Assembly (NCBI GenBank): GCA_029560585.1
Contig: JAKQKQ010000203.1
Coordinates: 1 to 46,387, forward strand
Origin: Verrucomicrobiota bacterium
Lineage (GTDB): Bacteria; Verrucomicrobiota; Verrucomicrobiia; JADLBR01
Reading direction: 5' to 3'
DNA length: 46,387 nucleotides
Positions 3,301 to 39,927 of this stretch are shown one piece after another. The stretch's first letter is position 1; each line of letters starts with the position of its first letter. The notes below the pieces were generated by a model. That model worked only from the letters and a program-made list of their open reading frames with translations. It was not told the DNA's origin and did no database searches. The translations under genes and the position numbers were made by a program.

Positions 3301-3526
3301 GAGGCCAACCCTACTCCCGCAGGCACCCCCTGCAACCCCCCCAACCTCGGCCAAGGGGCAGGTGCGAAGGTTCGCAACTTCGGGTCGCGCCCGCCGCCAG
3401 GTTGCCACGAGGTCGGCGCAAGGTGCCAGAGCGCATCAGCGCCGGGAATAATTCGCTGGACACCCCGCAGGCCGTCCCTACTCGTATGACGGCGCCACGA
3501 GACAACGCTCGGGGCCCAACCAAGGC

Positions 3527-3532
3527 AGGAGG
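3527..3532 (+). promoter_or_regulatory. Ribosome binding site of pckG
   Basis: A perfect AGGAGG lies only three bases before the ATG at 3536. The spacing is short, but this is the only strong Shine-Dalgarno in reach and it fixes the start. Confidence 0.6.
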
Positions 3533-3535
3533 CCC

Positions 3536-5350
3536 ATGGACACCAAACCCGGACACACTAAATGCGAGAAGCTCATCCGCTGGGTCGAGGAGATCGCTAA
3601 ACTCACCCAGCCCAACGCCGTTCACTGGTGCGACGGCTCGCAGAAGGAGTACGATGAGTTGTGCGATCTCATGGTCAAGCACGGCACGTTCATCAAACTG
3701 AACGAGAAGCTGCGCCCCAATTCTTATCTGGCCCGCTCGCACCCCAGCGACGTGGCCCGCGTGGAGGATCGCACCTTCATCTGCTCGGAGAGCAAGGCCG
3801 ACGCCGGCCCGACGAACAACTGGGCCGATCCCGCCCAGATGCGGGCCGAGCTGCGCGAGCTTTTCAAAGGATGCATGGCCGGCCGCACCATGTACGTGAT
3901 CCCGTTCTGCATGGGGCCGATGGACTCGCCCATCGCGAAGGTGGGCATCGAGATCACCGATTCGCCGTACGTGGTCGCGAACATGCGGATCATGACGCGC
4001 ATGGGCCAGGCGGTGCTCGACAAGCTGGACGGGACCGGCGAGTTCATCCCGTGCGTGCACTCGGTCGGTGCGCCGCTCAAGCCTGGCCAGGCGGACGTTC
4101 CCTGGCCGTGCGAGCCGGAAGTGCCCCGCAAGCACATCGTGCATTTTCCCTCGGATCGCTCGATCTGGTCGTACGGCTCGGGCTACGGCGGCAACGCCCT
4201 GCTCGGCAAGAAGTGCCTGGCGCTGCGCATCGCCTCGATCGCGGCGCGCGCGGAAGGCTGGATGGCGGAGCACATGCTCATCCTTTGCCTCACGTCGCCG
4301 GAGGGAAAGAAGCACTACATGTGCGCGGCATTCCCGAGCGCCTGCGGCAAGACCAATCTCGCCATGATGCAGCCGACGCTGCCCGGCTGGAAGCTGACTT
4401 GCCTGGGCGACGACATCGCGTGGCTTCGCATCGGCCGGGATGGCCGGCTCTATGCCATGAATCCGGAAACTGGCTTCTTCGGCGTGGCGCCCGGCACCTC
4501 GGAAAAGACGAATCCGAATGCCCTGGCGACCGCCGCCCGGAATAGCATCTTCACCAACGTCGTGCTCACGCCAGAGAACGATATCTGGTGGGAAGACATG
4601 GGCAGGCCCGCCCCGGCCAAGGGCATTGACTGGCAGGGCCAGGAATGGACACCCGATTGCGGCCGGAAGGGCGCGCATCCGAATTCCCGATTCACCGCAC
4701 CCGCCTCGCAGTGCCCGGTGATCGATCCAGACTGGGAGAATCCCAGGGGCGTGCCCATCTCGGCGTTCATCTTTGGCGGACGACGGGCTTCGACCATCCC
4801 GCTGGTGTACGAGGGCTTCAGCTGGGAGCACGGTGTATTCATGGGTTCGGCCGCGGGCTCAGAGACGACCGCCGCGGCGATCGGTTTGGCGGCGGGCGTC
4901 CGGCGGGACCCCATGGCCATGCTGCCATTCTGCGGTTATCACATGGGCGATTACTTCGCCCACTGGCTGTCGTTCGCGCAGCGCACGGACCGCTCCAAGC
5001 TCCCTAAGGTGTTCTTTGCGAACTGGTTCAGGAAGAGCGCGGACGGCAAATGGCTCTGGCCCGGATTTGGCGAGAACAGCCGCGTGCTCAAGTGGATTTG
5101 CGAGCGCATCGACGGCACGGGCAAGGCCGTCAAGACGCCCATCGGCTGGTTGCCGACCCCCGATGCGCTGGACACCAATGGCCTGAAGGTTAGCCGGCCG
5201 GAGCTTGCCGAATTGCTCTCCGTGGACGTGGAAGGCTGGAAGAAAGAGGCGGATGACGTGGCCGAAAACTACGCGAAATTCGGTGATCGCCTGCCCAAGG
5301 CCATGGCCGACGAACTCAAGGCCCTCCGGCAGCGTTTGGGTGGGTCTTGA
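3536..5350 (+). CDS. pckG: Phosphoenolpyruvate carboxykinase (GTP)
   Basis: Converts oxaloacetate and GTP to phosphoenolpyruvate, the committed gluconeogenic step, or runs in reverse as an anaplerotic CO2 fixation. The protein has 604 residues, typical of the GTP-dependent family and longer than the ATP type. The kinase-1a P-loop reads FPSACGKTN, with the family's reactive Cys270 and Lys272. Also present are the conserved substrate-loop segment [12 protein letters not shown] near residue 70, the [15 protein letters not shown] block near 215-230, and FGGRR near 415. It stands alone as a single gene and is probably followed by its own non-coding RNA or terminator region (5492-5599). Confidence 0.97.
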
Positions 5351-5469
5351 CTTTTCCAGAACAGGTGGCAGGAAATGGTAGAGGTAAAGAGGGATCGGCG
5401 GCGAGAAAAGACCTTGCACGATGAAGCCCGGTTCCTTAGGCTCTTTGACTGATGCTGGAAGAGACGATT

Positions 5470-5497
5470 TTGAAAGGGAATTACTGATTTGTAGACT
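5470..5497 (+). promoter_or_regulatory. Candidate sigma-70 promoter of a small RNA
   Basis: TTGAAA at 5470-5475 and TAGACT at 5492-5497 are separated by 16 bp in an unusually AT-rich patch (5455-5505) between GC-rich sequences. The -35 matches consensus at 5 of 6 positions and the -10 at 4 of 6. Transcription would begin near 5503, just ahead of two hairpins. Confidence 0.45.
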
Positions 5498-5502
5498 ATA
5501 GA

Positions 5503-5599
5503 AAGATCACCCCCCCAAGACGGGCGACCGCGCAAAGCTGGTCGCCCATTAAAGCCGGGCCGCACCCCCTCCCAATTTATGCGGCCCGGCTTCTTTTTT
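5503..5599 (+). ncRNA. Candidate C-rich small RNA downstream of pckG
   Basis: A predicted transcript of about 97 nt. It has a first hairpin (GGGCGACC 5522-5529 with GGTCGCCC 5540-5547). A second, perfect 10-bp hairpin (GCCGGGCCGC 5554-5563 with GCGGCCCGGC 5581-5590) is followed by TTCTTTTTT, the shape of an intrinsic terminator. Its 17-nt loop is unusually large and contains CCCCCTCCC, complementary to purine-rich Shine-Dalgarno sequences; a second C run lies at 5508-5516. C-rich loops of this kind are how several regulatory RNAs (for example the Rsa family of staphylococci) seize ribosome sites. It could instead be only the distal terminator of pckG, about 200 bases beyond that stop codon. 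Confidence 0.45.
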
Positions 5600-5755
5600 G
5601 GGGGGCGCGTTCGGTATCCTCTCCTTAGCAGAGCGCCGAGCGAGAGCCTGCGGGCGCGTAGGCCCCCGGATATCCCATCCCACAGAGTCGGCCTCCAAAT
5701 TGAATGGGCGCCAGAGTTCTCGACTTGGATCTCTTGCCCCGCGCGGCCGGGGCAC

Positions 5756-12701: not shown

Positions 12702-12793
12702 GCTGGCGTTTCAGTATCAGTTGGGAGGGACGCCGTCCCCGGCGTCCGCGATTCACCAGCCGCGCAACGCCCGGGCCAACCCGGCCCGCGAGG
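12702..12793 (+). repeat. D-type 92-bp repeat, copy D1
   Basis: A 92-bp block from GCTGGCGTTTCAGTATCAG to the CCCGCGAGG at its right end. Its reverse complement recurs at 14485-14576 with only three differences (about 97% identity). Shorter relatives occur near 29893, 42823 and 35520. Confidence 0.85.
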
Positions 12794-12799
12794 CGAGGC

Positions 12800-12973
12800 T
12801 GTCTCAAAACTCAAACGCCCAACACGGAACATCCAACAATCAATGCCCATCTGATGACAGAGGGGACCTCCAATGGTGTCCGGCGCGCGACAATGCACGG
12901 CACCTCACAGAGATGCCCTACAAAATTTGTAGGCCGCCTGTGCCAGGCGGCGCGGTTCAGAGGTTTTGAGACA
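12800..12973 (+). repeat. E-type inverted-repeat element, copy E2
   Basis: A 174-bp element, bounded by TGTCTCAAAAC and GTTTTGAGACA, the perfect form of the terminal repeat. It is the same length as E1 (2117-2290). The inner part includes the palindrome ACAAAATTTGT and the hairpin GCCGCCTGTGCCAGGCGG. It encodes nothing, so it resembles a MITE or another short non-autonomous element. Confidence 0.8.
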
Positions 12974-13191
12974 CGCTCAGGCCGTGGGCCCTCCCCAGGA
13001 TGCTCGCATGGCGCACCCATCGAAAGGACATGGGCCACGGGACAATAACGTTTTGTGACAGACTCGGGCCGGGGTCCTCGTGGGCCGCGTCAGCCGGGCA
13101 ACCGCGCGATCCGCGTAACCCAAAAACCCCGCTTGAAACTCTGGCCCGCCGGCCCAAGACTCCCCACCCCGGCGTTTCCGCCGGGGGCGCG

Positions 13192-39855: not shown

Positions 39856-39896
39856 TCCAGACCGCGTCATGCGCCAATGGCGCTTGCGCAAGATTG

Positions 39897-39927
39897 GCGG
39901 GCCCGGGAAACCGGGCCCGCTTTTTTT
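39897..39927 (+). terminator. Intrinsic terminator of the chaperone operon
   Basis: GCGGGCCCGG, tetraloop GAAA, CCGGGCCCGC, then seven T. This is a perfect 10-bp GC stem with a stable GNRA-type loop. Confidence 0.95.

Follow-up and report, generated by a model that had tools for sequence, protein, structure and literature searches.

A conserved two-hairpin RNA at the 3' end of pckG in a Verrucomicrobiota genus is a candidate 3'-UTR-derived small RNA

Downstream of pckG in the Verrucomicrobiota genome G000 (7.06 Mb in 336 contigs), a short stretch of DNA is predicted to fold into two hairpins, the second of which exposes a C-rich loop and is followed by a T-run. The question raised by this locus is whether the stretch is a small regulatory RNA gene with a promoter of its own, as was originally predicted, a small RNA derived from the 3' end of the pckG transcript, or simply the terminator of pckG. 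We analyzed the 46,387-nucleotide portion of G000 in which the locus lies, referred to here as the window, and compared it with 57 relatives, among which a single genome, G001, belongs to the same genus. The name pckG is taken from the original prediction and from homology. The features of the locus are collected in Table 1.

Table 1. Features of the pckG locus and of the conserved RNA element, with positions in the window.
Feature	Position	Strand	Evidence or remarks
Native pckG upstream region and 5' leader	3446..3535	+	blastn of 3446-5149 against G001; blocks AATAATTCGCTGGAC ... CCCTACTCGTATG common to both
pckG, GTP-type PEP carboxykinase, 604 aa; coding region mostly foreign-looking	3536..5350	+	identity comparisons and comparisons of 5' and 3' resemblance
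Decayed remnant of native pckG 3' end, ...FERELLICRL-stop (TAG at 5499-5501)	5351..5501	+	tblastn of G001 PckG
Promoter-like pair overlapping codons of the remnant; probably not conserved as a promoter	5470..5497	+	near-chance score; unmatched in G001
Leader of the RNA, C-rich, single-stranded, AAGATCACCCCCCCAAGAC	5503..5521	+	19/19 identical in G001
Hairpin 1, 10 pairs, bulged T	5522..5547	+	MFE fold; one G-C to C-G compensatory change
Hairpin 2, terminator stem, 13 pairs, no mismatch	5552..5592	+	MFE fold; invariant relative to G001
Loop of hairpin 2, CCCCCTCCCAATTTA, candidate seed or anti-Shine-Dalgarno sequence	5565..5579	+	15/15 identical in G001
C + T6, 3' end of the RNA	5593..5599	+	7/7 identical in G001
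G6 directly past the T-run; can pair with the C-run of the leader in read-through RNA	5600..5605	+	folding energy with the flanks included, -62.8 kcal/mol; an outer stem forms

The structural part of the original prediction is borne out by the sequence: both hairpins, the perfect second stem, the C-rich loop and the T-run lie where it had placed them. The predicted folding energy of positions 5503-5598 is -47.1 kcal/mol, compared with -26.5 ± 3.2 kcal/mol for shuffled sequences (z = -6.4), and none of the 200 shuffles reached an energy as low. The loop of hairpin 2 measures 15 nucleotides, or 17 if the closing A-U pair is left uncounted. It had been described as much larger than the loop of an ordinary terminator, and this is correct for the terminator used in the comparison (at approximately 39896-39921), which has a 4-nucleotide GAAA loop. 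A large loop is by itself not unusual when terminators are scanned leniently, and the strong point of the element is therefore its conservation rather than the size of its loop. The C7 run of the leader (5510-5516) and the G run past the T-run (5600-5605, five of six bases kept in G001) could also form a 10-bp outer stem that adds approximately 15 kcal/mol, and would do so only in read-through RNA.

Among the 57 relatives, we observed a match to the element in G001 only (E = 8.6e-48, 89% identity), the weaker matches being short chance pieces. As in the window, the G001 homolog lies 3' of pckG. A base-by-base alignment of the RNA (5504-5599) with its G001 counterpart revealed 93 identical columns out of 97, compared with 64-73% identity in the flank that precedes the RNA and 50% in the flank that follows it (5608-5640). 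The stem and tail of hairpin 2 are without change. Within the RNA, the two genomes differ by a substitution and an indel, both located between the hairpins, and by a G-C to C-G swap in hairpin 1 that leaves the two bases paired, a covariation that is statistically weak because it comes from two sequences only and was equalled in 246 of 500 shuffles. The stems and the C-rich loop are both kept in G001, and the original prediction thus withstands a test by which it might have been refuted. With the 66% identity of the adjoining pckG remnant as background, the probability that loop and leader would remain unchanged by chance is approximately 1e-6, a background that is rough because the counterpart of the remnant is still coding in G001. 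Since this conservation exceeds what a terminator needs (19 of 19 bases in the leader and 15 of 15 in the loop), the alignment gives good support to the view that the element is very probably a functional RNA. Selection evidently covers both of the unpaired C-rich stretches, neither of which a plain terminator would need. The linkage of the RNA to pckG is specific, since pckG and the RNA are all that the window and the G001 contig (45.7 kb) share in gene order.

The coding sequence of pckG has a history that differs from that of the RNA. At the amino acid level, the PckG protein of the window is 64% identical to the same-genus PckG and 74-76% identical to those of several other families of the class. 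The first 60 or so nucleotides of the gene are 85% like G001, versus 48-72% for four donor-like genes, and the 3' part is closer to the donor-like genes. Furthermore, the gene in the window stops earlier than the G001-type gene and has a different C-terminus. The G001 frame ends in ...KELIFEKELLICRL-stop, and the conserved RNA begins a few bases further on. When G001 PckG was compared with positions 5351-5501 by tblastn, residues 555-585 were recovered at 48% identity (E = 2e-8), followed by ELLICRL-stop in another frame. The simplest reading of these comparisons is that most of the pckG coding region was swapped in place by recombination, leaving behind the native leader, a remnant of the native 3' coding sequence and the RNA; the loss of one of two tandem pckG copies is a less economical explanation. 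Since the adjoining remnant has decayed and the RNA has not, the RNA is, on this comparison, under selection that is independent of the native pckG coding sequence. Upstream of the gene, the blocks AATAATTCGCTGGAC and CCCTACTCGTATG are identical in G001 and might represent a promoter or operator.

How the RNA is made is the point on which the original prediction and our analysis diverge. The original prediction held that the element is an independent small RNA gene, transcribed from position 5503 by its own promoter at 5470-5497. The motifs on which this rests are present (TTGAAA at 5470-5475, a 16-base spacer and TAGACT at 5492-5497), they match a sigma-70-like promoter at 9 of 12 positions, and the two genomes agree slightly better in the -35/-10 stretch than in the rest of the remnant (0.73 versus 0.66). 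However, one such match was found where 0.3 would be expected in that region, which is near chance. Moreover, the corresponding G001 bases are the last codons of pckG and encode the C-terminus of the protein; they have changed at the -35/-10 positions and give no promoter match, and the alignment contains a 4-base indel just past the -10 motif. The promoter-like pair thus lies in ancestral pckG codons and has not been kept, and we consider transcription from a dedicated promoter at this site to be unlikely. What stands of the pckG-linked RNA of approximately 97 nucleotides that had been predicted is a conserved structure with an exposed C-rich loop, and what does not stand is its independent transcription.

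The position of the RNA, which starts a few bases past the G001 stop codon and ends in a hairpin and T-run, instead identifies it as the 3' UTR of pckG together with an intrinsic terminator, and we propose that it probably accumulates as a 3'-end-derived small RNA of approximately 97 nucleotides, a reading to which we assign a probability of roughly 0.55. The RNA would be made by transcription of pckG with termination at hairpin 2, and its 5' end would arise either by cleavage close to the point at which conservation begins or from an internal promoter that has escaped recognition. The loop CCCCCUCCC might then pair with other mRNAs at their G-rich ribosome-binding sites, the C7 leader possibly providing another pairing site, and the translation of such targets would be lowered while pckG is expressed. 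The RNA would be expected to act without Hfq, ProQ or CsrA. A more specific and more tentative proposal is that the element represents an undescribed family of small RNAs restricted to this genus, whose genomes yielded no match to Hfq, ProQ or CsrA. Such an RNA would be released from the pckG transcript at its 3' end, would act in trans on ribosome sites through the C-rich terminator loop, and would have been retained by selection even though a foreign coding sequence had taken the place of the original one.

These proposals have to be weighed against simpler uses of the same structure. If the element were a plain intrinsic terminator that also forms a protective 3' end for the pckG mRNA, with hairpin 1 stabilising that end and without any regulation, its location directly past the ancestral pckG stop codon, its strong stem and T-run, and the lack of both a conserved promoter and recovered targets would all be accounted for; the loop and the leader, however, would be expected to vary freely, and neither has changed at any position, which leaves this explanation somewhat doubtful. 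Control in cis, with the C-rich loop pairing with the ribosome site of pckG itself, has a precedent in icaR of Staphylococcus aureus (PMC3868564), and an AGGAGG does precede the start of the pckG of the window. Nonetheless, the pairing is predicted to be weak, at -8.8 kcal/mol for the window and -6.0 kcal/mol for G001, and it is not conserved; we regard control of this type as very improbable.

Other possible identities for the element were ruled out. A riboswitch or leader of the downstream gene does not fit, since that gene differs between the two species, being a plus-strand ORF in the window and a convergent gene in G001. A repeat or mobile element is excluded by the presence of one copy per genome, and a small protein by the lack of an ATG before the terminator stem and by the 1-nucleotide indel between the hairpins.

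An anti-Shine-Dalgarno role for the loop is plausible, given that the loop contains CCUCC and that, in both genomes, GGGAGGGG often precedes ATG. We counted 73 occurrences of GGGAGGGG at 2-10 nucleotides before ATG in G000, versus 16 for a reversed-pattern control, and 57 versus 24 in G001, although this control is crude because reversal also destroys the ATG. The complement of the loop, TTGGGAGGGG, is not enriched genome-wide in either genome (24 versus 26 and 19 versus 18), and no convincing shared start-site target was found among the approximately 50 loci that were read out of some 130 with the pattern. Two pairs of targets that appeared to be orthologous were rejected: the start in one pair falls inside a longer open frame, and the other pair consists of a short conserved stretch whose coding status is uncertain. 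At loci L210 and L227, near position 1500, the sequence TTCGTGGGATTGTGTGGGAGGGG(C/T)CGTTTCGAATG is strongly conserved between G000 and G001 and is followed by a short frame that is 84% alike over 37 residues. Identical sequences that hold TTGGGAGGGG recur at G000 contig ends (L168, L178, L174 and L190; C15/C107 and C83/C156), which suggests multi-copy repeats at which the assembly broke. The window itself contains a 214-nucleotide direct repeat (2099-2312 and 12782-12995, 93% identical), which may belong to a repeat family spread through the genome.

With respect to RNA chaperones, no match to Hfq was found in any of the 57 genomes of the class, G000 included, and five control genomes were positive. 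Likewise, neither ProQ nor CsrA was found in either member of the genus. Since these are draft assemblies that are approximately 94-96% complete, these absences are likely rather than certain. Given that all three proteins went undetected, a mode of action that depends on Hfq, ProQ or CsrA is unlikely.

The family, as judged from sequence searches, is known only from one genus and two genomes. A covariance model built from the two sequences returned nothing convincing beyond its own genome when run against 388 genomes of the phylum. The single additional match (G357, 32.8 bits) has only the terminator stem AAGCCGGGCCG in common with the element, without hairpin 1 and the C-rich loop. Locus L078 (27.3 bits) also lacks the C-rich loop. 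Matches from the element search outside the genus proved to be coding-like sequence or unrelated GC-rich terminators. CCTCC-type motifs are scattered downstream of approximately 110 other pckG genes, and a matching architecture was not found there; the exact core pattern has no occurrence in IMG/VR.

We also compared the element with known small RNAs, and no Rfam family matched the window at its gathering level. One likeness is to ErsA (Pseudomon-1, RF01719), which also has two hairpins, the last of which is a terminator with a CCCCUCCC-containing loop. The element scores 31.8 bits in the window and 33.2 bits in G001 (E = 0.001-0.0005), compared with a gathering score of 50, and only model positions 34-109 match. 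ErsA is, moreover, a Pseudomonas RNA with its own neighbourhood, whereas the element is linked to pckG in a Verrucomicrobiota genus. Its regulation of amrZ has been reported to be Hfq-independent (PMC5819304). The alpha-r14/NfeR1 ("cuckoo") family (RF02344, gathering score 58.8) matches at 24.2 bits in the window and 27.4 bits in G001. These RNAs are Hfq-independent and leave CCUCCUCCC unpaired in each of three hairpins (PMC10746234); the C-rich anti-Shine-Dalgarno motif in unpaired parts of hairpins is shared, but alpha-r14 is alphaproteobacterial, and the element has two hairpins, one CCCCCUCCC loop and a C7 leader. The factor common to the two sub-threshold matches is a GC-rich terminator whose loop is rich in C. 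Since other C-rich-loop families match the same place more weakly, the likeness to ErsA suggests shared architecture rather than descent. Membership in either Rfam family is not supported by these scores, and the working resemblance to both stands: by analogy with alpha-r14/NfeR1 or ErsA, G-rich ribosome sites could be masked by the C-rich loop. NmsR of Neisseria meningitidis, which act on central metabolism (PMC5362039), also carry two unpaired anti-Shine-Dalgarno stretches, the first located between stems and the second within a loop, but these are UC-rich rather than C-rich and are set among three stem-loops; the likeness is one of description, and no homology is claimed.

In functional class, the element fits the small RNAs derived from the 3' UTRs of metabolic genes, such as SdhX from sdh-suc and the small RNA released from the glutamine synthetase mRNA (PMC6393394, PMC9731577, PMC9438474). 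As with these, it lies at the end of a central-metabolism mRNA with which it would share a terminator, an assignment made by position only, and its conservation continues past the stop codon. Sequence conservation that reaches beyond the terminator downstream of a stop codon is considered a pointer to 3'-UTR small RNAs (PMC9438474), and in the element it extends over the leader, hairpin 1 and the loop. SdhX differs in that it is Hfq-dependent and processed by RNase E, whereas Hfq is undetected in the genome of the element. The genus-restricted family is new, and the kind of RNA is already known.

The locus amounts to a natural control in which a coding sequence was exchanged and its old tail decayed while the neighbouring RNA stayed intact, which separates selection at the level of the RNA from selection at the level of the gene. 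Few small RNA families have been catalogued in the Planctomycetes-Verrucomicrobia-Chlamydiae group, with 8 distinct families in one survey (PMC9029176), and the locus provides a defined candidate for an Hfq-free base-pairing RNA in this group. If the RNA acts on metabolic mRNAs, it would tie the expression of a gluconeogenic gene to post-transcriptional control in a little-studied phylum.
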